A DNA stretch of 64,000 nt from positions 6,986,493-7,050,492 of the forward strand of contig NC_060115.1 of NCBI RefSeq assembly GCF_021155765.1. Direction: 5' to 3'. Position numbers and translations under genes: made by a program. The DNA is from Diprion similis. Its lineage: Eukaryota > Arthropoda > Insecta > Hymenoptera > Diprionidae. Below are positions 27,373 to 55,568 of this stretch, piece by piece. Under the pieces are notes generated by a model. The model did no database searches. It saw only the letters and a list, made by a program, of their open reading frames with translations, and was not told the origin of the DNA. The first letter of the stretch is position 1, and each line of letters opens with the position of its first letter.

Positions 27373-30300
27373 ATGAAACTTGAACATAGCGTGGAAAACC
27401 ACTCGTTGTGCACGGAACAAATGAATGGGAGTGTTCTTCGTTTCTGCAATTACGCTCCGATGATCGCATCAACGAATGACGAAGTCTGCTCCATTGACCA
27501 TTTTCACATGGACAACCAAATATCACGAGTAAGTAATGTAGTGACGGGAAAACAAACGAACTACGAAACGTCCACGATGCAAAACATTCGAATTTCGGTT
27601 CCTGTAGAATCGATTTGAATGTTATTTAAAACTAGATTTATTTTGCTTGTCTACAGGTCGAGTGTCCGCGTGAGCCTTACTACGAGGATGCGAAACCTCT
27701 GCAACTGCTGAACCTGGATTTGCAGAGCAAGGCGAAGAGCGAGATTCACAATTGGAATATCGATATCGAAGATCCGTGCAACAAGTCGTATTACAGTAAG
27801 CAACCAGCATACTAATGTTGTATCTTACAGAACGTAGAATCGAAGAATAAATATGGATTTGAAACAACCGCGGACATCACGAAATGTAACTGGGATTCAA
27901 AAACTTTACGTCAAGAATTTTCCACAAGTCATAATATTCGACGAACATTCGTGAAAAAAATTACCGCCAATCCTTTGTCGCAGATTTTCAAAATGATCAT
28001 TTTGTGGGTTGGAGTTCCACCTTCAAAATTCTTTGTTTAAACTTCGTCTGCGATTATTTCTCGCCAAGTTATCCAACAATATTAAGAAAAGTAGTGTCCG
28101 CAAAACTTTGATCGTGTCAAACGAAAAAACCTTCGTAGAGAAATTTTGAAAAAAAAAAAGGAAAACTAATCTTTGAATGTCGCCATTCTGAATTTTTAAT
28201 CACTCAACCGCTAAGGCATCATGGCGGCGTTAAGCGAGCTCGTATCGTAACAGTCAAAAATCGCAAAATGGCGTCATAATGTAATTCGATGTTTTTGGTG
28301 TTTCAGGTGAATATTTACTTTTGAAAGTGGTTGGTCTAAGGATTTTTACAGTTCGAGAAATACGATTATGTCCATAAAATGTTATTTTTTCCGCGCATTC
28401 ATACAGTTTTGAGCCCTCAAAGTTGACGAATTTTTTAAATCGTGTTCTCAAAATGGCGGCATGGAACAAACTATGATCTAATTTCTTTGGAATGTATTTT
28501 TTTCTTTTCAAAAACATTGAATAACAATACTTTCGAGAAAATTACCGAGTAATTTTTATAATATAAACTTTAGTTATGCTGTATAATAAATCAAATTTGG
28601 CATGTTTCTAAAGATGGCCCTTAAAATTCGGTGATCGAAATTTAAACTCAACCGTGGCAGAGCTTCCGTAAAAATGGTGATCATGTTTCTCCATCTTCCA
28701 GATTTTCTCTATCTTGAAGAAATGAGATTTTCATTCAAACCTCTATTTTTTAATTATTCCTACGTTTCTGATAGCAAAAATATACTCAAAGCAAAGAGGA
28801 TTTTTTCACTTGTTATGTAGATTAAAAATTTTTCGAATACTATTTCTTTTGATGTTGGATAACTTGACGAGAAAAAATCGTGGACAAAATTTCATAAATA
28901 CCCTACTGAAAGAGAAAATTCGTGCTACCAAATGGTTATTTTGATTAAAAAAAAAAAGAAAGAAAAAAAAAAAACAACTGATCATAGTGTATGATCGCGC
29001 GAAATCGAAGCTTCGCCTTACAAATTTGACACGTGTGACAAAATAAGATTACTCGAGAAAAAGTCCATACAGACTAAATCTGAAAAATGGTGCTTAAAGC
29101 TAAAATTTTTAGCTTGAAAATTGTTTTTGATTCGATGTTCTACTTTTGCAGTTTGCGTCAAGTTACAGCGTTTCATCTTTTCGAATATTGATTCAAGCAT
29201 TTCTTATTTATTGCTATTTGGTTTTTTGTACAGGTAGTGACGAAGAGATGAAACCCGACTACAACAGTTGGATGAGAAAACCGATTGAGTACTGGGATAC
29301 GTCAGAGACAAAAAGTTGGCTTCTTTCGAGTTTCCTGACATTAGGTATTCACTATGAAAAACTTTGCACTGTTGCCGAGGAATTTTATATGCCAGGAAAT
29401 GAACTCCTACGATTATCGCTACAAGATTTCATCAACCGTGATCACGTCAACGGAAGAAGACTTTACGAAATGTTACAGGAGCACCGCGACATGAAATATC
29501 ACGGTAAGTTTTAAATCGGTAATATAAATTAACGGTGAAAAATATTTAAAAAAAACACACCAAATCATCGTATATTTATTACGATTTTCTTTTTTCTTGT
29601 ACAGCATACTCGTTCACAAAATGTCCACCACAATGTTCCGACGATGAAACATCCGTTACTATCAGCCAAAATTATTCCGGTAAATAATACGTCCAATTAA
29701 TACTTATATAATATTACATAATATAGTATCTATATGTTATTAAGTCGACGAAAAGGATTTTATAAAAAAAAAAAAAAAATTTATTAAAATCGGTAGTAGA
29801 AAATTTTTGTTTACGATAGCAATTCCGCTGTATGTATTAATCGGGTTTAACACGTGTAACCGTTGAAATTACAGACGAAGAATCGGTGATCAGTACGGAT
29901 TATATTAAAAAACGACAACCCGGAAGGCCTCGAAGTTTGAATACCAAACTAAAACCTGGTAAGCTGATAAAGGAATTTTCGAAGTGCAGTCTTAAAAAAT
30001 ATTTATCGATTGTGTCTAATCAATGTGATCTTTCTTTGTGTAAACCAGCAGCCAATCACAAAAGCGAGAAACTTTGGGAATTTGTGAGGAACTTGCTACT
30101 CAATCCGGAGTTTTGTCCGCAATGGATACGCTGGGAAAATTACGAAAAGAAGAGATTCCGTTTTGTGAAAAGTGACTGCGTAGCGAAAAGGTGGGGATCG
30201 CGTAAAGACAATCCAGACATGACTTACGAAAAATTCAGCCGTGCGATGAGGTAAATTCAACGACTCTTAAATATTTTTTCATCACCTTTAGTTGTATAAG

Positions 30301-30843
30301 AAAAGCATTGATTTCGGTCGAAAATCAATTTTTCTAATATCAACGAGTCTTTGCGCGTTCTCAAACCTCTAGAATCCGAAAAACAGGATTTTATAGAAAT
30401 GTCGATTTGTCCGACAAAGAGCTGGATTTTCACGGGTATAAAATTGCCGCGACGGCGAAATATCGGCGATTTGAGTTGCGCTTTTATACGAGGAATTTAA
30501 AAATTTCATTGGAAGTATGACATTCGACATTTTTCTCCTCTTCTTTATCACTTATTTTCATTCTTTTTACTGACAAACGTATACTTTTTCTTTTCTGATG
30601 AAAAGTATCGCGGAACTAAAAGTTTTTCCCGTCTCGTTCGCAACGGTTTGTCAACATGGATAAAAACAACGCAATATTAACGCTCAATTTTCTTCCTTGT
30701 GTTTCAGATATTACTACAAAAAAGATATATTCGTTGCTGTCCAAGGTAGGCGTCTCGTTTATCAATTTGGTTCTAAAGCGACGGGCCTAGAAACGGACGA
30801 TCCGAATTTCAAAAAGACCATGATGAGTAACTCAAATTGTTAA
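27373..30843 (+). CDS. ETS transcription factor, PNT + AT-hook + ETS (cluster copy 1)
   Basis: Sequence-specific DNA-binding regulator. Exons: 27373-27528, 27657-27795, 29234-29503, 29605-29679, 29875-30250, 30708-30843, about 383 aa. The third exon encodes a PNT (SAM-like) domain (IEYWDTSETKSWLL ... YMPGNELLRLSLQDFI ... NGRRLYEML). Exon five starts with an AT-hook-like KKRQPGRPRS, then the ETS domain (KLWEFVRNLLLNP ... IRWENY ... FSRAMRYYYKKD), ending RRLVYQFG and GLETDDPNF in exon six. PNT, AT-hook and ETS in this order, with RRLVY[KQ]FG, is the ESE/ELF3-EHF arrangement, so I place it there. Exon five contains a 90-nt in-frame segment (29959-30048) with strong splice sites. If removed, the protein loses 30 aa. 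Start is the first in-frame ATG of exon one. An earlier exon cannot be excluded. Confidence 0.85.
27960..28960. repeat. Degenerate inverted repeat in ETS copy 1 intron 2
   Basis: Near 28046-28090 the phrase CGATTATTTCTCGCCAAGTT ATCCAACA appears. Its near reverse complement is at about 28850-28892 (TGTTGGATAACTTGACGAGA AAAAATCG). Flanking bases on both sides also match weakly in inverted orientation. This suggests an old inserted element of about 0.9-1 kb with no coding capacity. Ends are approximate. Confidence 0.4.
29959..30048 (+). other. 90-nt in-frame intron / exitron within an ETS exon
   Basis: Donor CCTG|GTAAGC and acceptor TTTCTTTGTGTAAACCAG bracket 90 nt with a TCTAAT branch-like site. 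No stop codon occurs in frame, so both spliced and unspliced messages stay open. In copy 3 the same position, in the same phase, is a stop-containing intron (41818-41893) with a GC donor. This shows the site is a real ancestral intron. The copy in the middle locus (36058-36147) is identical. Confidence 0.7.
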
Positions 30844-33821
30844 AACAGGTGAATCATTCCCCACATAAAGCGATCCTTACTTAATTTATAGATCAATAAT
30901 TTTTTTCATTTAATTTATTATCTTTCCATCTGCCTCTCCACGTAACGAAAAATCTTCACGCATCATTCTATGTACATCACATATATCATTTTATACGATA
31001 TGAGGCTATAATTTTACGTAAGCGTATATTACATAAGGATATAGATTCGACGGTATTGTATTATATTATACAGAAGAAGGATATTTATGGAGGAAGTACG
31101 ATTGTATAGATCGAGATGAACTTGTACTCAGTCTCAGTATTATAAATATTTAAAACATAATTTAATGTGTTCCCAAGTGTATAAGTTATACTATACGACT
31201 AAAAAAATAAGATATATGTATACGTGATCTGAATTGTGTGCCAAATAAATGCCTACACAGATTAACTGTATAGGTATATTTGTGTATGAGTAAACGAGTA
31301 GTTGTAGCTTGTATCGAGCATATAAGTATTTGACCTGTAATCAGTACTCAATTGTAAGCTACTAAAGTAAGGATACAAGCGTAATTATCCTGCAAAATCT
31401 CGTCGTATATGTGTTTTATTTCAAGACTGTAGTTGAGAGAAAACTGGGGAAAACTTGAAAGAAAAATATATACAAAGATTTTTAATAATTCCATTGAATC
31501 GTTGCAAAAAAAATTGAGGCTTGTGACTAATAGTTAAAAATTGATGAAACGATATTTCGATTTGCTTGTTATATTAGTCACTTTAGAAGATAAGAATTAT
31601 AAAATGAAAACAGAGCACCGACTCTATTTCGATTTATAATTTATCCCTCGGGTTACTTAAGTTATTCGTAGAATTCCTTTTATAATTAAACGATTGAATA
31701 TTAGAGATTTGTTAATATATTTAATTTAAGAAAATGTATGATAATGGAGGAGGTACATGGAGGAGAGAACTCACGATGTATATATATCATGCAACATTAA
31801 AGATATATTGTAATATAAAAGAAAATTTGATTGACTGTTGAGACGGATGAAAGTTTTTGTTCTCTTTTTTTTTTACGTTTGAACTATAAGGTAAACCTTT
31901 CATCAATTTGTCTACACAAAAAAAAAAGTATGTTTAATTCCATAAGCATTATAACTATGCATAAGTATACGAGTTTAAGTAGTCTCGATGTAATACATGC
32001 TATTTTTATACTTTACAACTGTGTGTACGTGATGATTAGAATACACGAAAACCTTTCATCTTTCTCAATATTTCTGTTAATATTGCATCCATTGCGAACC
32101 AGTGATATCGGTATTGAATGAATATAGCGCTGTACGCGTGATTGAAATCGAAATTCGGTTACAAGCGCGGATCCAAGACAGATTTTTAGGAGGGAGCGAA
32201 GCCGAGTGAGATACGGGGGGGGGGGGGGGAGATAAAATTACTAAATAAATTTTATAAATATGAAAAAAAAAAAAAACACTAAACAAAAAAGAACGAATTA
32301 CTCTCGGTTGTCGACAATATCTCAACCGTTATAACCACAGTATCGCTGCTGTCTAATTTTTGCAATCGTTTTAGTCCTCACTTAACTACCACACTCGCCA
32401 ACAGAAGCCAAAAGGTTAAGTCAAAATAATTGGCTTTTGAAAACATATGAATTGGTCGAGGTCCGAAATTTTTTCAAATGTTTGTTTTTCCTAAAAACCA
32501 CGGTGTAACAACGATACGCCTCGCGATATAAACTCGCCCCAGTCTTCCGCACCGTTTAATCGTCCTTAATGAGACAATTAATTAATTATTTGAATGAAAA
32601 ATCTATTTAAATAATAACCAAAATATTGATGTCGGCACCATATTTAAAGTTGTTTATGTAGTTTTTTTTAAAAGTCCACAAGGGAAAAAGCAGAGTTGAA
32701 TGGCTACTTGCGAATATCTAAATATATTTTATAGTAGAATATAGTATAAAGTAGGTACTAATAATGTACTAAGATCCTGAAAGTATTGGACTTCAATATC
32801 AATTGAATATGAAACAAAAGAAAAGAAAAAATATTTACTTACGATTGACCAGACCAATTTATTTAAAAATTCAATATGTTATTGAGAGTCAAGTTAAGAC
32901 TTTCTATAGATATACAATAGACAGATTTTGATCTTGTTACGTGTGTGATATTATTTTATTTTGTTCCTTAGTTACTGTGATACTTTTCCAGTATAAAGGT
33001 AAATAAACTAAAAATCTGTCCATTGTGCATATGCATAAAAGCTCTTGACTCTCTCACTACCATAACAAATTTTCAATCAAATTGGTTATGTTACTTCAGA
33101 GAGAATTTTTTTTTATTTTGGTTATAATCTATTTCTTTTATACTAATAGGTTAAGGTCCAATTCTTTTAAGACCGTAGTATTTTGATGGTACACATACAG
33201 ATTCCGCGAGAGCAAATTTTCCTCCCGTCCGGAGGGGGCAATACCCCCCCCCCCCCCCCCCCCCCCCGCCCTTTCCGCCGCCGTTGGATACACGTAGTTT
33301 ATAGCCCACGACGTCACAAAGGAGTTTCAGAAGTTTTTTCCGGATTGCTAAACATGCTGTGCGATATTCGCATACTAACTTCGTGTGATACGACATATGA
33401 ATAGCAATACAGCGTCGGTTGATTTGATATGCTACATCGTAGGTCCGAGAATGGCCGAATGAGTAGCCGGAATCCCCGATGCTAAACTAGATGGGTGAAA
33501 CATCGGTGACCGATCAGTAGAACTTGTTGCATAAAAGCGTCCGCATGTTGAACACGGAGACATTGGTTAACGCTTATTGAAGAACGTTTTACAGATGATA
33601 AAACAAGAGATTGAAAAAAACCGTTGAAAGATACTGCTCATTCATTATAAACCATTATAAATCTCGGTACAAGTGGATAATTGAATAAAGTTTGAGCATC
33701 GTAAGGGCGTTCGGGTTAGTGGAAGAAGTACAATTCTTCGTTAACGCAATTACAAGATTATAAAAAATCTGTAACACTAGACGATTGCCTCTGTTGTTAA
33801 TTGCACGAGAGGAGCAACAAT
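30844..33821. other. Spacer between ETS copies 1 and 2
   Basis: Left part (to about 31870) is 3' flank that is duplicated after copy 2 (to about 38180). Right part, from about 33380, is 5' flank duplicated before copy 3 (from about 39772). Between lie a 15-base poly-G (32215-32229), a MITE-like element (32884-33055) and a 24-base poly-C (33244-33267). No coding sequence seen. Confidence 0.6.
32884..33055. mobile_element. Small MITE-like element with about 46-bp inverted ends
   Basis: Left end reads GAGAGTCAAG ... CAATAGACAGATTTT (32884-32939). The right end is the reverse complement of GAGAGTCAAG ... CAATGGACAGATTTT (33010-33055), with one short indel. The core is about 70 bp and non-coding. 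The organisation fits a non-autonomous DNA transposon. Target-site duplication not resolved. Confidence 0.6.
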
Positions 33822-34917
33822 ATGTCATCCGTAAGTTTCCATTTTGTTTAACGTTTCTCCTACATTTCGTTAGAATTTCACGCGCCTTTTACAAACTCAC
33901 GCACGAAACTTGGTTGCCTTATTTCTTATCTCAATTCTTTTTGTCTTATACAATCTCATTGTTGTTATAAATGCAATATAACTCTTCGCTATGACACAAG
34001 TATAAGAAAATAATAAGATTTAATCTAATTTAATTTGAAGTTTATCTTTTTTTTTACCCCTTACCCGATTTTCTGCAGTTTGGTTATCTGGTGTGTGATC
34101 TAGACGCCATGGATTTAAATCGTCAAGTACCGCTAAACCAAGATAATGAAACTCAATCCGATCGAATTCTTCGAAATTCGAAATACACCGAGAGATCCGT
34201 GCGTGGAATCGGATGACGGTAAGTAACTGCTGCTCTTTATTATTATATCTGCCTAGGAAACAAGCGAAAGAATGATATCATTCCTCGCAGTCGTTAAACA
34301 GTAATACGTTATATTATACTGTTACATATCTTCTCATATTAATGAATGATTCGCTGTTTTTTTTTCCATTTTTTGCCATCACCGTGTACAGATAGCAAAG
34401 AGGATGAGAACGAAGATTGCGAAAGTTGGAGCAAAAAGCCTCCAATTGAATGGGATAAAGACGATACAAAAAAGTGGCTACTTTCGACGATATTAAAGAA
34501 ATTGGGTGGACATTACTCCGACTGCTGCAGGAGTGAGAAACTTGTTATGCCAGGAGAAGAACTTCTAAAGTTGTCGGAAAATGATTTTATAAATTTCTGC
34601 GGAACCAACGGAAGTAGGCTTTTCGAATTGTTGCCGAAGCAAAGCGTCCCAACGATTCGTCGTAAGTTTTATAGTAGAAACGAAAGTCGAACAAACTCAA
34701 AAAGAATGTCTGGGACATTAATTTTACGTGAAACAAATCGGTCCGGATGTAAGATATTATTTTTCCGATTTTTACGCAAACAGGTGATAGAAAAAGTACG
34801 AAGATCGATGCCCAAGGGTGGAAGAAAAAACGGGTAGAACGGTGGGAGATGACAGATACAAAAAGTTGGCTCCTTTGGATATCTCATGAATTAAAGATGC
34901 TTTTCGAAGAATTTTCC
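33822..34917 (+). pseudogene. ETS cluster copy 2, 5' half: frameshifted and truncated
   Basis: Matches copy 3 exon by exon: 33822-33830 (ATG TCA TCC), 34079-34218, 34392-34661 (first PNT domain) and the start of the second PNT exon at 34784. Exon two lacks two bases relative to copy 3 (CCGAT-CGAATTC against GCGATGTCGAATCC). This shifts the frame to a TGA at 34214-34216. The second PNT exon breaks off at about 34917, after a deletion of about 21 nt (the segment with CTTTGCATTGTTGCC), into unrelated DNA. The exon encoding PNT domain 1 and the following intron are identical or nearly so to copy 3, so the damage looks recent. A protein restarting at an internal ATG in the first PNT exon is possible but not supported. 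Confidence 0.8.
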
Positions 34918-35847
34918 AAATCTCGCCGGCGCCCCGCCACCCTGTCAGACATCCAGAAAGCCCGGCCTTCCACTTCCTTCGATCCTTCGCCCCTCCCCAG
35001 TTCTTCTTTTCACCGCCCACGCTGCCTCTGTTTAACGCTTCACCCTATGATATATACCACTATACCTATACAGATTGAACCCCTTACCCTACACTCGTAC
35101 CCTTATATCTACGAACATTTGACCCTTCAACCCCACTTCCATCCACCCTCCCAACAAAACCCGAAAACGAGAGTTGGCGCGCAGGGCGAAATCCCGCTAG
35201 TATTTACATACATATATTGTGACGAAAACAAATTTCTCCGCGATCTGGCAAATATGGTCAACACGTGCAGGGGCACGAACGGGCCGATTTCTCATGGCTC
35301 GCCGACGCGAAGCTTTTTCTAACCTTCCTTTTCTCTTTCGTTAAGCGCCAAGTCAGATGTGAGTTTTCTTACCTAGACCCAAACCAAACTAGGATAGTTT
35401 ACAGTTGCCGAGGGCTGAACGTCTGTGACTGGAGCAGGGCTACCGAGCAAGGCTTTCGAGATAATATGTCAAGGAGGTGCAACGAGCAGAGGAGGGGATA
35501 AATAATACCTGGACGCGATGAGGTTGATGTTCACAATAATTTGGTTTATTACCTTTTGTAGATTCCGGTAACAATCCCCAATTGTGGCTGCGACCAAGAT
35601 ACGAAAATCCAGCTGCTGGCGCACACACACACACACACTCACTCACGAAACTATCGATGACACTTGACCTGTCGCTCATGGTGTTATTAATCCGACTAAA
35701 CGCTCTCGGCCCGTCGGCAGAAATCTCGGCCGCCGCCCCCCTCCCGGCCCCCCTTCGCATTCGGGGGTTGGCGGACTCGATCACTGTTTTCGTTTCGCAC
35801 CTTTGTGTTACACTATACAATACAGTATATGTATATATAATATAATT
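34918..35847. mobile_element. Foreign insertion, possibly a solo LTR or retroelement fragment
   Basis: This stretch has no counterpart in copies 1 or 3 and is clearly more C/G-rich in parts than its neighbours. A segment beginning TGTGACGAAAAC (35218) resembles the TGTGAC start of many insect LTRs. It later contains CAATAATTTGGTTTATTA, like an LTR polyadenylation region, and a (CA)n tract at 35621-35640. No gag or pol similarity is visible and I could not fix both ends or a target duplication. Called as an insertion with good confidence, as an LTR with low confidence. Confidence 0.45.
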
Positions 35848-35973
35848 ATTGGCGAGATTACTTTCTCTGTAAAAGAAATGATCTAGTTTGAATCTTGAAA
35901 TTTTTGTCTACGATATAGCAATTCCGCTGTATGTATTAATCGGGTTTAACACGTGTAACCGTTGAAATTACAG

Positions 35974-37326
35974 ACGAAGAATCGGTGATCAGTACGGATT
36001 ATATTAAAAAACGACAACCCGGAAGGCCTCGAAGTTTGAATACCAAACTAAAACCTGGTAAGCTGATAAAGGAATTTTCGAAGTGCAGTCTTAAAAAATA
36101 TTTATCGATTGTGTCTAATCAATGTGATCTTTCTTTGTGTAAACCAGCAGCCAATCACAAAAGCGAGAAACTTTGGGAATTTGTGAGGAACTTGCTACTC
36201 AATCCGGAGTTTTGTCCGCAATGGATACGCTGGGAAAATTACGAAAAGAAGACATTCCGTTTTGTGAAAAGTGACTGCGTAGCGAAAAAGTGGGGATCGC
36301 GTAAAGATAATCCGGATATGACGTACGATAATTTCAGCCGTGCGATGAGGTAAATTAACGTCTCTTAAATAGTTTTTCATCACCTTTGATTGATATGTCA
36401 GAAAAGCGTTGATTTCGGTCGAAAATCAAATTTCAAAAAACGGATTTTAGAGAAATACCGGTTTGTCCTGCGAAAGGCTGGATTTTCACGGGTGTAAAAT
36501 TGTTACAACGGTAAAGTGTCGCGCGTAAAAACTACGTGGTTGAATTACTGGATCTGAGTTGCTTTTTCATACGAGGTATTCAAAAATCTGGGATTGTTAA
36601 TTGGAAGTATGAACAAACGGGAAAAACGAAGAAGCAAAAAGGAACTCGAATGAAACCGTAGCTGTTATTGGAGGTAAGTAAATAATCTAATTCATTCTTA
36701 GTGTTCCAGAATCGTGCACTAATGCATAAAATGCCTTTTCATGTTTATTACCGCATGCTATAATACTGAAAATATAACAAAGTGTCCAGGGAATTTCTTT
36801 TCAACAATAATAAAAAAGATGTCAACAGTCAATGTCAATGCATTAAATGTATTACGATTCTAGAATAAGAGACGGATTAGATTATTTTTGTATACCTCTA
36901 ACAACTACCTTTTCACTCGATTTCCTTCTCGCTTCTTTATTTTCTCCGTTTGTTCAACCTGGCAAGTAAGAATCCTTGATTTTTTAATTTCTCGAATGAA
37001 AATGTAATATTCATCAACTAACTCAACCACGTGGCTTCTGACGTCCGTGAAAATTCAGCCAAATTTCCGCGATGATCTCGAAAACCGTTAGATGAAAAAA
37101 TCGGAGACTTGCAGGATTTTACAACTTAAAAACGCAAAAAAAAAAACGCAATGTTAATCATTAATTTTCTTCCTTGTGTTTCAGATATTACTACGACAAA
37201 GATATATTAGTGGGTCACCAAAATAAGCGTTTCGTTCGTCAATTTGGTCCTAAAGCGACGGGGCTAGAAACGGACGATCCGAATTTCAAAAATGCCATGA
37301 CCAGGAAAATTAAGGGCAAATCATGA
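35974..37326 (+). pseudogene. ETS cluster copy 2, 3' half: AT-hook and ETS exons without a linked PNT
   Basis: Two exons, 35974-36349 and 37185-37326, correspond to the last two exons of copy 1 and remain open to a TGA. The first is identical to copy 1 over about 280 nt, including the 90-nt exitron and the intron before it. Changes then accumulate: DNFSRAMRYYYDKD replaces EKFSRAMRYYYKKD, and NKRFVRQFG replaces GRRLVYQFG. Two of these remove positive charge in or next to the DNA-recognition helix. The tail is new (NAMTRKIKGKS). With the 5' half broken and an insertion between, a normal full-length product is unlikely. An ETS-only protein from a new promoter is conceivable. Confidence 0.7.
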
Positions 37327-38241: not shown

Positions 38242-38661
38242 GTTTTTTTTTTTTTTTACGTAATTTATTTTTTTCTATAGGTAAGGTACGTAGTATACAG
38301 AGCCGTGGTTACATTCACATATATCTTTCATCTTTGTCCAAATACTCTTTTATTATGAAGTTCATAATTATTTACAATCTGGCGTACACACGTGTCACAC
38401 ACAGTTGTTATAAAACACGGCAATGCATCGAAATGTCTTGATTCGTGATCAAGGAATTATAAATTCGAAATGTAGCGCATGTATGTACATTCTGTGCCCA
38501 ACGCTGGAGTCCCAACGCGGTCGCATGAACATTTTCAAAACGGTGCCCTGGTCGATTCCGACGTTGACCTGTATGTTTCGAAAAATATCGAAGTCAACGT
38601 ATCTCGAACGCAAAAACAGGGTTTAATGGGCACATTGTATTGGCAATTCATTTTCATTCGA

Positions 38662-38775
38662 CGAAGAAATAAAGAAATGGCATGAATCCTACAAATTTAC
38701 CATTACGATTTGGTAAAAACCATGCTATTTCTTTATATATGCGTTGAGTGAGAATGTATTGAAGTGTTTTTGTCC
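38662..38775. mobile_element. Diverged relative of the cramped-intron MITE
   Basis: AATAAAGAAATGGCATGAAT near 38669 and CATGCTATTTCTTTATATATGCG near 38722 form imperfect inverted arms. They share the core with the element at 19723-19891, and the right flank (GAATGTATTGAAGTGTTTTTGTCC) also resembles that element's right end. Confidence 0.5.
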
Positions 38776-40198: not shown

Positions 40199-42383
40199 AT
40201 GTCATCCGTAAGTTTCCATTTTGTTTAACGTTTCTCCTACATTTCGTTCGAATTTCACGCGCCTTTTACAAACTCACGCACGAAACTTGGTTGCCTTATT
40301 TCTTCCCTCAATTCTTTTTGTCTTATACAATCTCATTGTTGTTATAAATGCAATATAACTCTTCGCTATGACACAAGTATAAGAAAATAATAAGATTTAA
40401 TCTAATTTAATTTGAAGTTTATCTTTTTTTTTACCCCTTACCCGATTTTCTGCAGTTTGGTTATCTGGTGTGTGATATAGACGCCATGGATTCAAATCGT
40501 CAAGTACCGCTAAACCAAGATAATGAAACTCAATGCGATGTCGAATCCTTCGAAATTCGAAATACACCGAAAGATCCGTGCGTGGAATCGGATGACGGTA
40601 AGTAACTGCTGCTCTTTATTATTATACCTGCCTAGGAAACAAGCGAAAGAATGAAATTATTCCTCGCAGTCGTTGAACAGTAATACGTTATATTACACTG
40701 TTACATATCTCCTCATATTAATGAATGATTCGCTGTTTTTTTTCCATTTTTTGCCATCACCGTGTACAGATAGCAAAGAGGATGAGAACGAAGATTGCGA
40801 AAGTTGGAGCAAAAAGCCTCCAATTGAATGGGATAAAGACGATACAAAAAAGTGGCTACTTTCGACGATATTAAAGAAATTGGGTGGACATTACTCCGAC
40901 TGCTGCAGGAGTGAGAAACTTGTTATGCCAGGAGAAGAACTTCTAAAGTTGTCGGAAAATGATTTTATAAATTTCTGCGGAACCAACGGAAGTAGGCTTT
41001 TCGAATTGTTGCCGAAGCAAAGCGTCCCAACGATTCGTCGTAAGTTTTATAGTAGAAACGAAAGTCGAACAAACTCAAAAAGAATGTCTGGGACATTAAT
41101 TTTACGTGAAACAAATCGGTCCGGATGTAAGATATTATTTTTCCGATTTTTACGCAAACAGGTGATAGAAAAAGTACGAAGATCGATGCCCAAGGGTGGA
41201 AGAAAAAACGGGTAGAACGGTGGGAGATGACAGATACAAAAAGTTGGCTCCTTTGGATATCTCATGAATTAAAGATGCTTTTCGAAGAACTTTGCATTGT
41301 TGCCGAAAAATTTTCCATGCCAGGAAATGAACTTCTACAATTGTCGCTACAAGATTTCATCATCCGTGATCCTGTTAATGGGGAAAAGCTTTACGAATCG
41401 TTGCACGAGCAACGCGACGTGATATATAACGGTAATTTGTATATATGTATACATGTGTGTGAAATCATTTGAATTAGAAAACAAGAAAAATGGAATGAGA
41501 AGAAAAATTAAAACCTTTTCAGGAAGTCGATTCCAACAACACCAAGCACCATATTCCGACGACGAAACATCGGTCGACACCACAGGCTCGATTTCAGGTA
41601 ATTAATACGTCAATTAGGCTACAGGAATAATTTACGAAACAAAATAAATTCCGATTCGATAAAGATGAATCTGCTTTCATCGGGATTAAGTTAAGAGAAT
41701 TTTGTTGCCAAAACGATTACGCGTTAATTGTATTTCTCTGTTTGGATTATGCAGATGCAGAATCGGTGAACAGTATAAGTTTGGAAAGAATAAAAACACA
41801 TTCAAAAGGAAAATCTGGCAAGTTGGATAAAATGTTTCGAGTGAGAAAAATGCATAGATAATTGATGTTCTAATCTATTCGATATTTCGACAGACAGGAA
41901 CACCATGTGGGCTTGGGAATTCTTACGGAACTTATTACTCGACCCGAAGTATTGTCCCGAATTTATACGTTGGGAGGACTACGACAATAAAATATTTCGT
42001 TTGATTAAAAATAAAGAAATAGCACAAATGTGGGGCGAACGTCGGGAAAAAAAAGGGCATAAGATGAACTACGACAAATTTAGCCGTGCGTTAAGGTAAA
42101 TTTTGACAATTCATATAACTATATGTATAATTACAATAACTCGTTCCTTCTCTTACACCACAGCAGTATGAATTTTTCTCAAATAAATCGGCGAATACTC
42201 GTAATCGCAATAATCATAAATGATAAATTGTAGTTTATAATTTCACATTTCAGATATCATTATAAAATTGGCACACTTAAATCTGTTTCTAAACGGCGTC
42301 TTACTTATCAATTTGGTCCCACGGCAACCGGATTAGAAACAGACGATCCCAACTTTCAAAGGGCCAACAACCTCAAATATTAG
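40199..42383 (+). CDS. ETS transcription factor with two PNT domains (cluster copy 3)
   Basis: Exons: 40199-40207, 40456-40597, 40770-41039, 41162-41431, 41523-41597, 41755-41817, 41894-42095, 42254-42383, all in phase, about 386 aa. Exons three and four are each exactly 270 nt, same phase, and both encode PNT domains: PPIEWDKDDTKKWLLSTI ... MPGEELLKLSENDFI and RWEMTDTKSWLLWI ... MPGNELLQLSLQDFI. The second is closer to the single PNT of copy 1. The ETS domain follows (WEFLRNLLLDP, IRWEDY, FSRALRYHYK, RRLTYQFG, GLETDDPNF). It has RYHY where most ETS proteins have RYYY. The linker lacks the RPR AT-hook seen in copy 1. Intron six has a GC donor. An alternative start with strong context (GCCATGG) lies in exon two. 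ESE-like by gene structure, divergent in sequence. Confidence 0.85.
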
Positions 42384-43811: not shown

Positions 43812-46485
<2,674 letters not shown>

Positions 46486-47579
46486 CGCAAGAGTATATTT
46501 ATTATCTAAAATAAAATTACAGCTCGTAGTGCAGCATAAACTGTTTTGAATTATAGGTTAATTTTGACGAAGCACGCGTGTTGACCCTGGATCAACCTTC
46601 GACTGCAAATACTACCATAGACGTCTAACCGCCTCACACAAAATACGAACCATAGAAATAAAATTTATGGCGACGATGTGCCGAGCAGCGAATAGATTTT
46701 TAATTATCGTAGGAGAGGGATATGCCATAAGCCCCTGGACCGCGGAACAAAACGAACAAATAAGATACAAATATAAGGAATGGCTAAGAAAAGACAGAAA
46801 TGAAGTGTATTGATTCAAAATTCATTTATGCAGAGAGAAACTAAGAAAGCCGACTCTCGCGTTTTTGGTGTTCTCGATTTCGTAGCGCCATGTGACGTGA
46901 AATAGATTTTTAGAACTTATTTGTGACTGGATGGTACGAACGCATATCGGTTATCGATCCGTACGCAACCATATATACTTAGCCGCAAGCAGTAGACGAT
47001 ACAAAGCAAAGTGCCACTGCAGTGGTCGAAACAAAGCAATCGGATTACCCGTTTTCGTCCTTACTCGAATTTGGCCATTCTCACGATAGTTTCACGTAGA
47101 AGATCTGTCCGAATGCGCTCTCCAAAAATCACCTTAACTACTGTCAATTTGATATGATATCAGTATATTCAATACACTAGGTAGCCTATCGTTTCGAGAA
47201 ATTCGAACTTCAGGCGATCGGTAGTATAGAATCTACTACCGGAATATAACCGGAATTGAAATGCTCAATGACCATTGTGTATAATACCCACGGAAAATAC
47301 TAGTAAAGATCTATTTATCCATGGTAGAAAACTGTCTGTACTACTCATGACTTACAGAACTGTATAGCTCATGGTTATTGGTCGCACGTTTGAACTAACC
47401 GCTTGAACGGCTGCAATTAATATTGTTTACACTGCGCTAAAGCCGCACACATATAGTGCGTGCGTATGTGTAATTTAAAATCAGGATTTAAAATTGAGGG
47501 AAACAAGCAGCGAGTGAATTGTTATTGGAGCAAGTGCATTGTTGACCAAATTGCATTGCTGACCAAAAATTCGTCTGCA
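46486..47579. promoter_or_regulatory. Divergent promoter region of PRMT3 and the F-box gene
   Basis: About 1.1 kb between oppositely directed genes. It contains the candidate microprotein ORF at 46667-46813. The rest has no coding signal and is expected to hold the two promoters. Confidence 0.4.
46667..46813 (+). CDS. Possible 48-aa microprotein
   Basis: ATG to TGA ORF of 48 residues beginning MATMCRAANRFLIIVGEGYA and ending KEWLRKDRNEVY. A short hydrophobic patch (FLIIV) precedes a basic, helix-prone tail. Composition resembles small mitochondrial membrane-associated proteins, but I do not recognise it. It is head-to-head with PRMT3, with 180 bp between start codons. It could equally be a chance ORF. 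Comparison with related genomes would settle it. Confidence 0.3.
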   Translation: MATMCRAANRFLIIVGEGYAISPWTAEQNEQIRYKYKEWLRKDRNEVY

Positions 47580-49545
47580 ATGTTTCCCGTCGAGATATTG
47601 GAGATATTCTTCAAATATTCACATGGTACTGACATAATTAATTTTCGCTTCGTATGCAAAACATGGAATAACGTTATCACTCGACTTTCAAGGGTAGGTT
47701 CTATTTACGTAATTAGCTCGAACCCGCATCCAGTTATTGTTATTAATCTATAACTATACGAATTATTGACAAACAATAAATGTATATACTCAATTCTTAG
47801 TTTCATCACTTGATCAAAAGTTGCTTAGCCGATATTTCATACATGTTTCAGGATACAAATATGTGGCAACATAAATGCCAAAATGAAATATCCATTCACC
47901 TTCGTAGATCTATCGCACAAAAACTTTATCCAAACATTAGCTGGAATGACTTTCAAAAGTCAAAAAATAATTTGAAATGGCTATCGATGTACAGGACATG
48001 GATGAAATGGCACAAAATAAACGAATTCAGTGTTTCCACTGAACAATTTGAACCATTTTTTATCCGTCTACCATCAGTTCAAATAACTTGTCTTGCTGTA
48101 TCAGGTACGACTACAATAACAAATATTCAACTAAGAATTCTGATAGGCCTTCTGTATTTTCCTTGATAGCGATTGAATCAAGCCACATGTAAAAAATTTT
48201 ACACCGCATTTGTTAATCAACTATTTTTCTGTACAGAAAGTCTGCTGGCAGTCGGTAGCTCAGAAGGATTCATTGCTTTCTATGACATTGACAGATCCAT
48301 AGTTGAGCCAATTTTTATTGCTGACCAAATGGAACACGTATCAAATGTACAATTTTTACGAGATGGTAGAGAATTACGTTCATTTACGCTATGGATATCT
48401 TTTGTAGTTTTTTATCTTTGTTTTCTATGTTTTGTATGCTTACAGATACACGGATAGCTGCTATCTCTGCTTCTAACATGCACAGAGTAATGTTATGGGA
48501 TATTCTATTAAAAAAAGTGATTTCAGCTCCTAAATATGGGAGATTAATAAGGTAAAATATGTCAAAAGTAAACAGATGAAAAACATCTCGTTAAAAAAAT
48601 TTCTAAAACTATTATGATACTCTTGATTTCTTAGTACTACCCACGGATGTGTTTGGATCACAATGAAAAACAAGCTGATTATCCGGAGCAAGTGTATTGA
48701 AAAATCTTATGATTTCCTTGAACTATATGGCACCATTGTTGCTTTAGTAGCCGATGGTGAAGAGGTGCAGTACTTGCTCAATTCTTAATAGACATTAAAA
48801 AGAAACTGAATGTTTGACCGAAAAATGTTTGGCTGAACCTACTTATTCAATATTGACCAAAAAATTGAATGTAGTTTTTCCTTTTTGCGTCAGGCCTTTC
48901 TTTGGACTGATTTGGGTTACAACTATAAAGTAAACAGAAATGATGCTCCGTACATGGAGGAGGAGTACGTCGAACCTCCTGCAGATAGAGTATTAAAATA
49001 CTATGTGTTCAGACCTTGGACTGCCATGTGTATTACAAGTAAACAATTTTCACTCTAAAAAGATTTATGCCTATACCGTTCATTTCGTGTTGCATAAAAT
49101 TCATATTTTAATCTTACATTGTCCCTTTTTACCTTTAGTGAACGGTTTTTTGGGGATCTCTGTAAACAGTCAGCCCTGGGTAATGTACGAAATTCTATCA
49201 AAGCTTCATGGAACACCAACTGCATTACTTTTCTATGCCGATGTACTGGTTCTAGGATTAGACTCTGGTATGTACAAAATTTAAAAAAAAGTGATAAATT
49301 TTTGCAATGGAATTCACAGTTTTACATGATGTGAATTTAAACTTGCAGGTTCTGTTCACATGTACTACGTCAATAATGCAGAGTCACTAACTACTTGGGA
49401 CTTTCGTTCTAAGAACTGCAAATCAATTGTAGTCGCTAATCAAGCTATAATTGCGTTAGATATAATGGATCAGCTTGACAAGCAATATTTAATCGCCGCC
49501 ACTACTGAGAAAGTAAACATACTACAACTATGTGATCTGAGCTAA
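47580..49545 (+). CDS. F-box protein with WD40-like repeats
   Basis: Likely substrate adaptor of an SCF ubiquitin ligase. Eight exons: 47580-47693, 47852-48104, 48237-48365, 48446-48551, 48635-48764, 48894-49038, 49139-49267, 49349-49545, about 400 aa. The F-box is at the start (FPVEILEIFFKYSHGTDIINFRFVCKTWNNVI). The rest has beta-propeller-like blocks: LLAVGSSEGFIAFYDID, RIAAISASNMHRVMLWDI, VLVLGLDSGSVHMYYV and LIAATTEKVNILQLCD. The chosen ATG puts the F-box at the very N-terminus. The frame is open upstream to an ATG at 47466, which would add 38 residues. I do not recognise a specific orthologue. It ends 370 bp before the convergent PFAS stop codon. Confidence 0.8.
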
Positions 49546-49914
49546 TTACCTGTGATATTCACCTGGAAATGTGATTAAACTCCATCATTTAATCAACCGA
49601 CATACTATATTTATGGAATTCACAAACTTATTATTAACTGAAAGTTAGTCAATAGATTATCTATTTTATACTCATTATACTATGTATTCATATGTCATTT
49701 ATCAGCAGTTTTTTAAAGTAAAGATGAATTAATATATATATTTTTATTAAACTGCCAGCATTCGTTAACCGTTTCATTGCGACTTGTTAAGTTGGACGAA
49801 AAAGAAATCATCTACTCGAGTCTGCATGACGAAAATTTGCTCTGCAAACAGCCTTATCAATAATATACACAGATCTTACTTCTCTAATTGTAAGATAACA
49901 TAGTTAGTATTAAT

Positions 49915-52900
49915 TTAGACTGATTGACACCAAGCATAGGCATTTTGAAAAATACGTCCCCACGGTGATTGCTTCTGCATCCAAGAGACTGGGGCCCATG
50001 GCCACTGCCACATTTGAGTGCACCTCTCTGGATGAGGCATCATAGCTAAATGCCTTCCATTGAGCGAACAAACACCAGCTACTCCCTCTGCGAAATTAGT
50101 TAAAGTAAATTTATGCTGTTGAGGGAAGACTGGATTTTTCAATCAATGAAAGTATAAGTTATTCAGTCTTTAAATCTTACCAATACTGCCATTCGGATTT
50201 TGCGGATATTGTTCAGTTGGGATACCTTGATCATCCGTGTACCTGATAGCTACACATTTCAGTTCCTTTAATTTCCTGAAAATTTTCTGATTTCGGAATG
50301 TGAACCTTCCCTCGCCGTGAGCTACCCAAACCCCAAACACACTGCCTTCCATTCCTTGTAACATGATAGATGGAGAATTTTCAATTTTTACAGTACTCCA
50401 TCGGCACTCAAACCTTTCAGAATTATTGTGATCCAATACAACGTCTGGGATTCCATCATCTATAACCAGGTTTAAATTGCAATCATTGATATAACGTTCA
50501 CGCGGCGTTCGTAAAGTTATACTACGCGTGTTTATACTATACTTACTATTTTCTAGACAGCCTATCCATCCTAGTAAGCTCATTAGTTGACATCCATTGC
50601 ATACACCCAAACTGAAAGTATTTTCGCGCTCAACAAATTTTTGTAGTTGTGTCTTTAGAGTGGGATGGAACAAAAGGCTTGCTGCCCACCCTTTAGCTGA
50701 CCCAAGTACGTCTGCAAAGTGTACAAGAAATTATGGAATATCCTGATGAGGAAAAAAAGTCATGTTTTATTCTGTTCTTCAAACTCACCAGCATAACTGA
50801 AACCACCCGGGAATATGACACCTCTGAATGTGTCCAGTGTTAGCTGATTATTCAAAAGATCTTGCATGACCACATCCCAAACTTCGAAGCCAGCTTGTAT
50901 TAGAGACGCAGACATTTCTCGGTCCCCGTTTGAGCCCTCTTCGCGTATCACAGCAACTTTGAACGGAGCTGTTAAAATTCAAATTACTTGTGAGATTGAT
51001 TCAAGGATACAAGAGTGTCATTGTGAAACCGTGTACTTACATGCTATATGCTTTTGAGTGATAATTGGACTAACTGCAGGGTCGAATGTGAGTTTGTAAG
51101 CCGGTGAACTCCTCGTCGAAAGTTTGAGGAATTCTTCTTCAGCACAAGCTATGTTGGCTTGTCGTAGTTCCAATCGGTAACTTGTTTCCTCCCAAATCTT
51201 CATGAGAGGAAATACCGAAGAATTGAGTACAATTTTATCGTTGACTGATACAGACACCTGAAAAATATTTCAAAAGAAAGTTTACAACACTGACTAGGTG
51301 TAAAATAATCTTAGGTAACTTGTTGTGTTATATACGTACCTTTGATCGCAGGCCGAAACTCTTTGAGTTTCCGATAATATAAGCTGGAACATTATCGCGT
51401 TTAAAAACTTTCATAACATAATCAACATTTATGGGATCAACTTCCAAAATCCAGCCCAGCTCTTCAGAAAACAGAACATCAATCGGGGAGCCTGATTTGT
51501 GGTTGATATTTACGTCTATGCCAGATATTCCAGCGAAACTCATCTCCAATAAACACGTAATTAAACCACCATCACTTACATCATGCCCTGACATGAGCTT
51601 GCGATCTGAAAAAAATTTTACTTAAATTTTGCAAAGTCGATTCACTAATTAAAATGTGTTAGCATCCTACTATCACCGAATGAGAAACACTTGAATATTC
51701 GAAAAATCACGGATGATTCCACTTTCTCGTACCTCTTATTAAATTCTGTATGGCATTGAATGCATTCTTGAAAGTTACCGCATCTTCGAAATCTGGGCAG
51801 TTGTTACCAATTTGTTTGTAAACTTGAGCCAGAGCTGTGCCGCCTATACGGCTCTTTCCAGCGGATAAATCCACAAAAACGAGAGCTCCGTTTATTTTAA
51901 TGGATGGACCCTTCAAGTCAGGAGTAATAACCTGTGAACGAAAAGCAAGAATTGTCCAACAATAAACGCAATAAATAAATCAATGAGCTTCGGAAAAGAC
52001 AACGAAACTACCTAAATATTATGAAAAAAACTTGTCTGACCTGTCTTATGTCAGGACATGGTGCATAGGATGAAACAACTAGTGTTCCTGGTGCCTTGAC
52101 TACGTCTTTTCCAATTCGCGCAGCCATGCTCAGAGAATCTTTACCCCCATCAACAGCTATCCCCAATTCCTTCATTACAGAGCACATAGCAACACAGGCT
52201 TCATATAGCGCTGCACCTTCGCCTGGCAACTTGGCAGCCCACATCCAATTACCACTGCATTTAACATCCTGTAAGAGAAATCACAAGTCAAAACCTGTAT
52301 TGTTTGATTTCTAAATTTTTACGACTCGTGGAATTACAAATCTCTAGTCAGAAACTTACTGCAAGTTCTGATATTCGAGCAAATACAAGATTCGTCAGAG
52401 ATTCTGCGACTGTCATTCTTGCACCAGCAGCCGCATCAACAAGGCCTTTTATCGGCTGTTCTCCTATGGCAGTTGCGGAGCCGACCTGAAATCAGTAGGA
52501 AAACGTGTCATAGCTAAAATTTCATATGTATATACAGACACACGCACGCATGCACACACACACAAAATATGCATCCATTATTTATATGAATTGAATCACT
52601 TCCTATACGTACTGTGGAAAAATGTGAAAGTGCTGTAACAGCTACATCAGCTAGAGGAGTGTGAAGCGGACCTACGCACTGCTGTTGTGCAATCAAACCT
52701 GTTACGCAACGATCAACTTTATTGGTCAAGTAACGTTTACTTGCAACGGATGGTAATCTTAAGACTCGATCCAATGCAGCTTCGACACTCAAGCCAACAG
52801 GTAGAGTGATTGGGATAGAAGTTACTTGGTGTTTGTCAAGATTGAACATCTGAAGATATACAAATATTTGTAACAAATTAATATTTTTTTGGGATTAACA

Positions 52901-55568
52901 AGTCAACCAGGCAAAATGAACAATGTTCTCATTGGAGAACAAGTATGCATTTTACATATATACCTTCTTCGGCATTTTGCCCAAGACAAGCTCGAGTTCC
53001 AGATCCACAGGATGCCTAACATTTGTGGTTGCCTCTCCATTGAGATATTTAGATGCATCACAGTCATCTTCCTCTGATAGTACTATTTTTCCATTTCCAG
53101 TAACTGTGCCAACAAAATTAATCGGACACCGTTCACGTATCGCGATTTTTTCCAACAAACTAACATGTTCTGGTTTGCATAATATAGCATCATTTTCCTG
53201 ATACTCTGCACCCCATAATTCAAGAGTACTTATGCTGGGATCTCCTAGCTCAAATTTTTTAGTAAATATTACAGCGCCTGCTGGCTCTACCAATTCCTTC
53301 AATACATTTCCTGCAAAGCGGTATTTTATGTCAAATTTTTGTTGCAGTGTGAGAGCTAAATTCATTCAGTGAAATTCTTACTAACCGTTTCCTCCAGCTC
53401 CTTGATCGTGTATGCTCAATATTGGATTGTCGTTTCCCATTTCCATACAAGCCCTCACAAGGCGATTAAGTTTTTGCTCCATCTCTGCATCTCCTCTTTG
53501 TACTGCACCGAAGTCCAATTCTGACTTGTTGTCTCCCTGGACCTGTTTAAAAAATATTTTCAATATCAGTGAACCCATATATCTCATGATATTTGTAATG
53601 CCAAACTGATTTCTTCGGACGATTATATACACTAATCAGAATATACCTCAACCGAGCTTGCGGCTCCACCTCCAACACCAATTCTGTATACTGGGCCTCC
53701 AATTTTAATAACTTGCATTCCTGGAAGAAAGTTCCACGTTTATTGATTAAATAAAGTAAGTCACTGGTGATGCTAGATTTTTGACACAAACTGGTCTGAG
53801 AATAAATTAGATGTTTTAATGAATTTACCTTTTGCAGCTGGTAATTTCTCCGTCATGTTTGCTTCCATAGATCCCAACCCGCCACTGAACATGATAGGCT
53901 TAATCCATTCTCGACGACCACCCTCAGCCTCAACTAGCCCAAATGACCGGGCAAACCCAGATATTACTGGTTCTCCAAATTTATTACCATAATCAGAAGC
54001 GCCGTTACTAGCCTCTATTATAATTTCCAATGGGTGAGCAAAATTCGCAGGATACAAAACATTCTTTTCTTCCCAAGGCAAATCATAGCCTATGAAAATA
54101 CACAAATTTCATAGCTAATTAAAATCAACTCCCTCAGAACAATATTAATTTAGTTTGATTCAATTGAAATGATATCCAGCAATTTACCTGGAATGTGAAG
54201 ATTTCCAACACAATATCCTGCAGTACCCGCAATGTAATAGCCGCCTCTCCCGACACCTTGAATATCCCGTAAACGTCCTCCAGTACCAGTTGTGGCCCCG
54301 CTGTAATTTACATGTATATAAGCTTGCTTTTTTATTCAAGTATGAAATAAAGTCTTTACCTAAATGGAGCAACGCCAGTTGGAAAATTATGTGTTTCGGC
54401 AGTGAATATTATATGCTGATTAACATCATCAACACGGAAGTGGCTAGCCTCATGGGTTTTATCAGGGCGAAGAGTACGTAAGTTGAAACCCTTGATTGCG
54501 CTACTATTATCACTGAATTTGATGACGTTATTTGAGTTTGAGTAATTCTGCGTGTCGATAATCATGTCGATCAGAGACTCTTTCTTCATTTCACCATCCA
54601 CCACCATTTCGCCTTTGAAAAACCAATGGCGACTGTGCTCACTGTTAGATTGTGCAAGGTCGAAGCACTCTACGCTTGTTGGATTACGTTTCAACTTAGA
54701 ACCAAACAGATCTGCATAGAAATCCAAATCCCAGTCGTCAAAAGCCAGACCTGATGATGAAAAAACAAATTTAAAATGTAGGCAGCAAAGTTTTAAGTAA
54801 GATGTTCTAGTTTGTCTCATCAAAATTTGCCTGTCTATCTTACCCAGCTCTGAGTTCACATCCTCCAAGGCTTTTCTCCCGTACTTGAGAATGTCAACCT
54901 CATACCAGCCTTTTGGCTTAATACCGTGATCAAATGTTTCTATTGGTTCCAGGTACCTACACTCAGTCATTTTATCGTGCATCGCATCAACTATCTGATT
55001 GGAAGAAACAGTAATTAAGAAGTCGATATGGAATAACAATTCGATAGGACAATTAATTTCATATACGTACTGCAGATACTGTTTCTTCATTTAGCATTGA
55101 TTTAAGCTTAACGAGATATCTCGTCGAAACTTCTAATCTTCTCACTTTGTTCAGCTGAACAGATTTGCATATCGATACAGCATTGCTCGAAAACGCAGTC
55201 GAGAAGTTCAACCTAAATTTTTTGTAAAACACATTCAAGTCACCAACATTTCATGCACATTTTACTGAGAATTCAAATGATGAGACTATAAACTGTACAA
55301 ACCTAGGGCCAATTTCTATAAGCAGGGTCTGAGGATCCTGGATCAAGGTGGAAGTACTCCATAGGTTATCTGGCCAAAAAGGAGAGCCCAAGATCCATTT
55401 TAATCTGGAAATCTCATCTTGGGTAAGCTCCTGGGTAAGTTCAATGTTGTAGCAGGTTTCAGTTTCCAAGTCATTAACGGAACTTGAAATTTCTCTCAGG
55501 GTGTTCAGTTTGTTGTTTCGTTGCCCCGACTGAAGGCCGGGAATTTTGTAGAATCTCAGTATCGCCAT
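49915..55568 (-). CDS. Pfas: Phosphoribosylformylglycinamidine synthase (FGAM synthase)
   Basis: Fourth step of de novo purine synthesis: FGAR + glutamine + ATP to FGAM. Cytosolic single-chain enzyme; ade2 in flies. Eighteen exons (high ends 55568, 55212, 54994, 54750, 54300, 54089, 53720, 53542, 53310, 52849, 52485, 52268, 51931, 51605, 51257, 50968, 50711, 50087) join in phase to about 1352 aa, normal for the family. Landmarks: FDLAQSNSEHSRHWFFKGEM and FTAETHNFPTGVAPF (N-terminal synthase half), SGGLGSMEAN, SIHDQGAGGNGNVLKEL, then MSGHDVSDGGL. The C-terminal glutamine amidotransferase domain has FPGGFSYADVLGSAKGW, the nucleophile cysteine in LGVCNGCQL, HGEGRF and MPHPERC. Nothing appears broken. 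Start is ATG at 55568, preceded by a short 5' UTR. Confidence 0.96.

Follow-up and report, generated by a model that had tools for sequence, protein, structure and literature searches.

Two adjacent PNT exons in an ESE-type ETS gene of Diprion similis and the possibility of a tandem-PNT transcription factor

Does an ETS gene with two adjacent PNT exons encode one protein with two PNT domains or two isoforms with one domain each, and where did its second PNT exon come from? The question is raised by a locus of Diprion similis (Hymenoptera: Diprionidae) contained in a window of 64,000 nucleotides, which is the whole stretch of DNA analysed here (contig NC_060115.1, positions 6,986,493 to 7,050,492). 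The window holds a tandem cluster of three ETS genes, of which copy 3 is a diverged member and copies 1 and 3 look intact (Table 1). The cluster is called ESE-type because the ETS domain of copy 1, which served as the query, has EHF (10sm, 8.1e-30), ELF3 (3jtg, 2.3e-29) and ELF5 (1wwx, 2.7e-26) as its best matches in the PDB. In the following, PNTa and PNTb denote the first and second PNT exons of copy 3, and PNT1 the PNT of copy 1. An initial annotation of this DNA had proposed that copy 3 encodes an ETS protein with two tandem PNT domains derived from a duplicated 270-nt exon, and that such a pair could change the valency of the protein.

Table 1. Predicted features of the three ETS copies, in positions of the window.
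Feature	Position	Strand	Basis
Copy 3 coding exon 1 (ATG TCA TCC), predicted	40199..40207	+	Open spliced model, GT donor
Copy 3 coding exon 2, predicted	40456..40597	+	AG acceptor, GT donor, ends in phase 1
Copy 3 first PNT exon (PNTa), 270 nt, phase 1-1	40770..41039	+	Pfam PF02198, 31.5 bits; AlphaFold model poor
GT-AG intron, 122 nt, PNTa to PNTb	41040..41161	+	Splice borders, length
Copy 3 second PNT exon (PNTb), 270 nt, phase 1-1	41162..41431	+	Pfam PF02198, 39.7 bits; AlphaFold pLDDT 84.2
Copy 3 linker exon (exon 5), acidic, serine-rich	41523..41597	+	Spliced model
Copy 3 linker exon (exon 6), ends at GC donor 41818	41755..41817	+	Sole in-frame choice of two listed donor candidates
Copy 3 ETS-domain exon, first	41894..42095	+	Pfam PF00178, 91.9 bits for the whole protein
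Copy 3 last coding exon, end of ETS domain and stop	42254..42383	+	Spliced model
Copy 1, intact-looking single-PNT ESE-type gene, 353 residues	27373..30843	+	Spliced model; Ets 103.4 bits, SAM_PNT 20.8 bits
Copy 1 exons (PNT exon: 29234-29503)	27373-27528, 27657-27795, 29234-29503, 29605-29679, 29875-29958, 30049-30250, 30708-30843	+	
Copy 2 5' part, copy-3-like	33372..34918	+	Self-BLAST, 94% over 1550 columns
Non-ETS stretch splitting copy 2, at least partly a dispersed repeat	34919..35897	+	Matches of 34919-35640
Copy 2 3' part, copy-1-like linker exon and ETS exons	35898..37326	+	Self-BLAST, ETS reading frames

The two exons begin and end in phase 1, and both are bounded by AG and GT; each is preceded by ACAG, and they are followed by GTAAGT (PNTa) and GTAATT (PNTb). 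When the eight predicted exons of copy 3 are joined from ATG to stop, they give 386 residues in an open frame with no stop or frameshift, in which Pfam finds SAM_PNT twice and Ets once, along with a marginal SAM_3 match that overlies the first PNT. The ETS domain (residues 284-364) scores well above its cut-off of 26.9 bits, and by this DNA-binding domain copy 3 is predicted to be an ETS transcription factor. Both PNT exons also exceed the Pfam cut-off of 24 bits for SAM_PNT, PNTa over profile positions 5-76 of 83 and PNTb over positions 6-78, while PNT1 falls under it. The PNT cores read MPGEELLKLS, MPGNELLQLS and MPGNELLRLS. Two consecutive exons of the same length and phase, each coding for a PNT with the MPGxELLxLS core, are thus real, and the PF02198 search that had been proposed as a check on the annotation did not refute it, with the proviso that the fold model of PNTa is poor. 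NCBIfam gave no match, and a viral_contigs scan with the PNT alignment returned 68 pattern matches and no confirmed relative. Chance likeness or an assembly artefact can be discarded, since PNTa and PNTb are just 36% identical and yet score 128 with BLOSUM62, whereas the best of 500 shuffles of PNTb scored 16 against PNTa. A whole-genome search with PNTa found PNTb at E 5.4e-10.

At the level of predicted structure, AlphaFold supports the PNT fold for PNTb only. The PNTb model, built with three aligned sequences, is the best of five whose pLDDT ran from 84 to 53. Its best match in the PDB is ETV7 (9hk0, TM 0.74/0.86), the Mae chain of the Mae/Yan complex (1sv0_C) matches at TM 0.73/0.79, and all 6 matches at E <= 0.001 are, by title, PNT/SAM domains or TELSAM fusions. 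The PNTa model has a mean pLDDT of 55.1 and matched nothing in the PDB at E <= 0.001; its top-ranked, non-significant matches were TEL SAM domains with TM around 0.3.

The presence of the Mae SAM domain (1sv0) among the structural matches of PNTb bears on one reading of the gene, in which the GC donor of exon 6 fails and the product has 290 residues, both PNTs and no ETS domain, making it a naturally occurring decoy comparable to Mae, a PNT-only regulator of Drosophila. In line with this, read-through of the donor leaves the frame open to a stop at 41859-41861, and the matching donor of copy 1 is GT. The GC donor, however, fits the consensus at 7 of 9 positions with GC itself counted as a mismatch, and a GC-AG intron is as a rule removed if its donor is otherwise good. 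A PNT-only product is regarded as very improbable.

In pairwise codon models, omega was 0.22 between the ETS exons of copies 1 and 3 (p 8e-7 against 1) and 0.35 between PNTa and PNT1 (p 0.004); the ETS domain of copy 3 is strongly constrained, and PNTa is constrained relative to PNT1. The values for PNTb-PNT1 (0.84, p 0.61 against 1) and PNTa-PNTb (0.88, p 0.77) do not differ from 1, so that the rates do not show constraint on PNTb. Over the PNT trio, a one-omega model was not significantly different from neutrality (2 x delta lnL 2.8), and branch-wise estimates were unstable, the PNTb branch running to the limit. The open frame of PNTb, with no stop in 89 codons, is mild evidence for constraint, as in neutral simulations (2000 copies, indels not counted) around 7% of the copies acquired no stop at 0.82 substitutions per codon, and around 20% acquired none at 0.4. 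These data also speak to the idea that one PNT exon, or copy 3 as a whole, is decaying, with the exon skipped or the gene hardly expressed and no stable two-PNT protein made. Such decay would agree with the omega values near 1 that involve PNTb, with the poor AlphaFold model of PNTa, with the visibly broken state of the adjacent copy 2 and with the need of copy 3 for a GC donor, but it is at odds with the constraint on the ETS domain and on PNTa and with 386 codons that hold neither stop nor frameshift. On balance we consider decay improbable.

The origin of the second PNT exon is best approached through copy 1. The initial annotation had noted that the single PNT exon of copy 1, of the same length and phase, is most like the second exon of copy 3, and this is borne out by BLOSUM62 scores of 237 for PNTb-PNT1 and 175 for PNTa-PNT1. 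In terms of identity, PNTb-PNT1 reaches 53% and PNTa-PNT1 45%, which leaves PNTa and PNTb as the least alike pair. PNTb-PNT1 is also the closest pair at silent sites, where the proportion of differences (pS) is 0.41 for PNTb-PNT1, 0.60 for PNTa-PNTb, 0.67 for PNTa-PNT1 and 0.71 for the ETS exons of copies 1 and 3. The share of bootstrap replicates in which the PNTb-PNT1 value was not the smaller one was 0.016 against PNTa-PNT1, 0.044 against PNTa-PNTb and 0.004 against ETS, in a contrast that was picked after the data had been seen and that has some 50-60 silent sites per comparison. Exon 5 alone gave a pS of 0.62 (0.35-0.91) and no separation. A PNTb derived from PNTa within copy 3 would not be expected to show fewer silent differences from copy 1 than the ETS exons do. 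An exchange with the lineage of copy 1, later than the split of the genes, is the simplest reading, and the nearness of the second PNT to that of copy 1, silent sites included, suggests an exchange between paralogues. Counts of identical codons at conserved residues go against this reading, in that PNTa-PNTb (20/28) is nearly as close as PNTb-PNT1 (32/43); the corresponding counts are 19/36 for PNTa-PNT1 and 26/51 for ETS.

Trees and flanking sequences add less to this picture. A protein tree of four sequences, with EHF as outgroup, accepts all three arrangements. With more outgroups, the best tree of eight sequences joins PNTa and PNT1 and rejects only PNTa + PNTb (AU p 0.038), and because this is the sole arrangement rejected, it does not show that PNTb belongs with PNT1. 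Over its first ten codons, PNTb resembles neither PNTa nor PNT1 (40-43% of bases). Among the flanking introns compared, a weak likeness to the beginning of the intron after PNT1 (65% over 52 columns, E 0.011) was seen at the beginning of the intron after PNTa and not at that of the intron after PNTb. A search for a lost PNTa exon in the 1438-nt intron before PNT1 gave at best 16.2 bits over three queries, within the 15.0-21.6 bits of 20 shuffles; in the 101-nt intron after PNT1 there is a single 12-residue match to PNTb of 17.3 bits, which carries no shuffle control.

Two PNT exons in one gene and one joint frame stand, as annotated, while their derivation by duplication in place has become doubtful. 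A tandem duplication inside copy 3 is disfavoured by the low likeness of PNTa to PNTb, the lowest of the three pairs, and by the smaller silent-site distance of PNTb from copy 1, but the trees do not firmly reject it. Under the exchange reading, PNTa would be the older PNT exon of copy 3, and PNTb would have been gained later from the copy 1 lineage, or overwritten by it, via unequal recombination or gene conversion. An exchange of this kind may also have produced copy 2, which, judged from self-alignment, is a chimera of a copy-3-like 5' part and a copy-1-like 3' part.

In copy 2, a run of 554 nt (34358-34911) that takes in PNTa, the intron behind it and roughly half of PNTb does not differ from copy 3 at any position, and the shared part upstream differs, on the whole more so with distance; this combination points to a recent conversion or duplication. 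The PNTa exon of copy 2 is intact (34392-34661) and its PNTb exon breaks off at 34918, where the non-ETS stretch begins; 34919-35640 has at least 28 matches in the genome, itself counted. Exon 2 of copy 2 carries a 2-nt gap relative to copy 3, and a stop is met after the gap when it is read from the shared start. The 3' part matches copy 1 at 95.7% over 537 columns and at 85.8% over 162, and less elsewhere. Within the last intron of copy 2 lies an inverted self-similar stretch (36534-37032, 68% over 526 columns). The last coding exon of all three copies (42254-42383, 30708-30843 and 37185-37326) places TGLETDDPNF directly behind the ETS domain. Human ESE proteins are not known to have such an extension.

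Across the genome (269 Mb, 60 contigs), PF02198 has at least 8 matches, of which 3 fall within the 64-kb window and 5 are single and far apart. This count is a lower bound and may miss weak second PNTs, as PNT1 is not among the 8; apart from the window cluster, no further PNT pair was found among these matches, in a search that likewise missed PNT1. Elsewhere in the window, an imperfect inverted repeat at 19718-19898 (83% over 184 columns) is related to 38542-38773 (67% over 253) and is possibly a small transposon. By Pfam on single open frames, the neighbours at 43985-55090 (-), 59809-60504 (-) and 17638-18390 (+) comprise an arginine methyltransferase, a FGAR amidotransferase of purine synthesis, Mediator 25 and a Myb-like protein, the last with Myb matches under the Pfam cut-off.

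Whichever way PNTb arose, the number of PNTs per copy 3 protein depends on splicing. Inclusion of both exons, of either alone or of neither gives 386, 296, 296 and 206 residues, and all four frames are open. DNA alone cannot show a tandem-PNT protein, because the pair has the sequence features of mutually exclusive exons and all four combinations are in frame. If the exons were mutually exclusive, each transcript would contain PNTa or PNTb and never both, yielding two isoforms that differ in their choice of partner and keep the usual one-PNT architecture. Indeed, PNTa and PNTb are homologous neighbours of equal length, phase and splice-site type, and both single-PNT versions of copy 3 keep an open frame. 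Their mutual score amounts to 26-27% of the self score in our own BLOSUM62 scoring, compared with a limit of 15% used in PMC3228551. For the fly X chromosome, that paper lists 26 internal mutually exclusive exons as annotated and a further 39 as predicted, and annotated non-exclusive neighbouring exons of such features in just 6 of 1705 genes, so that, as far as these figures go, the prior favours mutual exclusion (PMC3228551). Likewise, tandem exon duplications are described in part of PMC6071210 as often ending up exclusive.

The splice sites and introns themselves give a different impression. Both signs of mutual exclusion that were sought, a steric bar by a short intron and pairing between introns, were not found: the intervening intron has ordinary borders and a length that imposes no obvious steric bar, and pairing between the three flanking introns was not above that of 300 shuffles each (shuffles as good or better, 0.98, 0.43 and 0.69), in what is a weak test. 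Joint inclusion brings no frameshift penalty, and whole-domain symmetric exons are the classic unit of constitutive domain repeats. The donors match the consensus at 6 of 9 (PNTa) and 7 of 9 positions (PNTb), which was counted against joint splicing, though it lies within the range of 6-8 over the 13 donors of copies 1 and 3. Taking these points together, we hold strict mutual exclusion to be rather unlikely, and put the chances that PNTa and PNTb are used together in at least some transcripts at about even. Both exons would then be recognised and spliced jointly in these transcripts, and the product would be an ETS factor of 386 residues that has two PNT modules. The explanation as a whole, with two PNT exons, an origin by exchange and joint splicing, is the best that we can offer and may equally well be right or wrong.

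What two modules could do in one chain depends in part on their interface surfaces. In ETV6, A93D and V112E are reported to make the PNT monomeric, and structure 1LKY contains a V112R domain, according to the relevant section of PMC7949025. To locate these positions on the printed ETV6 sequence, residues were counted and the printed V/E variants served as a guide. In the PDB alignments, Glu stands at the A93 position of PNTa, PNTb and PNT1, and the V112 position is Arg in PNTa, Lys in PNTb and Arg in PNT1. The window PNTs lack the uncharged ML and EH interface centres (ETV6 A93 and V112) of the polymerising TEL and Yan PNTs. As both key positions are charged in all three, TEL/Yan-like polymers are predicted to be unlikely. 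The proposal that a tandem PNT raises valency by oligomerising is weakened accordingly as regards polymers of the TEL/Yan type. Instead, the two modules may bind two partners, such as a kinase and a co-regulator, or one partner more tightly, with no TEL/Yan-like polymers formed. A Glu-Lys/Arg contact between the two modules is possible from the residues at these positions. A more specific proposal, which we put forward tentatively and at somewhat less than even odds, is that of a natural ETS factor with two distinct PNTs in one chain, perhaps by entry of a paralogue's exon into a gene that kept its own, whose modules might pair head to tail through their complementary Glu and Lys/Arg centres.

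If the exons are used jointly, the locus would provide an ETS factor with a doubled partner-binding module, perhaps acquired by exon exchange between neighbours, and thus a natural test of PNT valency; mutual exclusion would instead make it an ETS factor whose interaction module is exchanged through splicing. In open-licence literature searched for two or tandem PNTs and for ETS or ESE proteins in insects and arthropods, the matches listed include no ETS protein with two PNTs, although a known example may exist. Two ETV6 PNT domains do occur together in PMC7949025, there as separate domains of a heterodimer in the section concerned, and a mollusc survey records, in the part relevant here, loss of the PNT in ESE genes (PMC10664356).

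Among known systems, the closest are the human ESE proteins EHF, ELF3 and ELF5, to which the ETS domain of copy 1 is nearest and which share with the window genes an N-terminal PNT and a C-terminal ETS domain. They have a single PNT, whereas the copy 3 gene has two PNT exons, and EHF differs from the window PNTs at the two interface positions, with His and Leu in place of Glu and Arg/Lys. Copy 1 carries a PGRPR stretch, absent from copy 3, that we take to recall the AT-hook of ELF3. AT-hooks of ELF3 are named in a passage of PMC4924247. With the polymerising ETV6/TEL, ETV7 and Yan, PNTb has the PNT fold in common, ETV7 being its best structural match, but the charged residues of the window PNTs at the ETV6 A93 and V112 positions make a TEL-like polymer an unexpected outcome. 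Mae of Drosophila resembles the PNTb model in structure, whereas the main model of copy 3, unlike Mae, has an ETS domain. The pair is likewise similar to the mutually exclusive exon clusters of insects, being homologous neighbours of equal length, phase and splice type, but it shows no intron pairing beyond shuffles. Finally, tandem PNTs in one chain, as in the copy 3 model, are found in the engineered 2TEL and 3TEL crystallisation fusions, which are, however, man-made repeats of one human domain.
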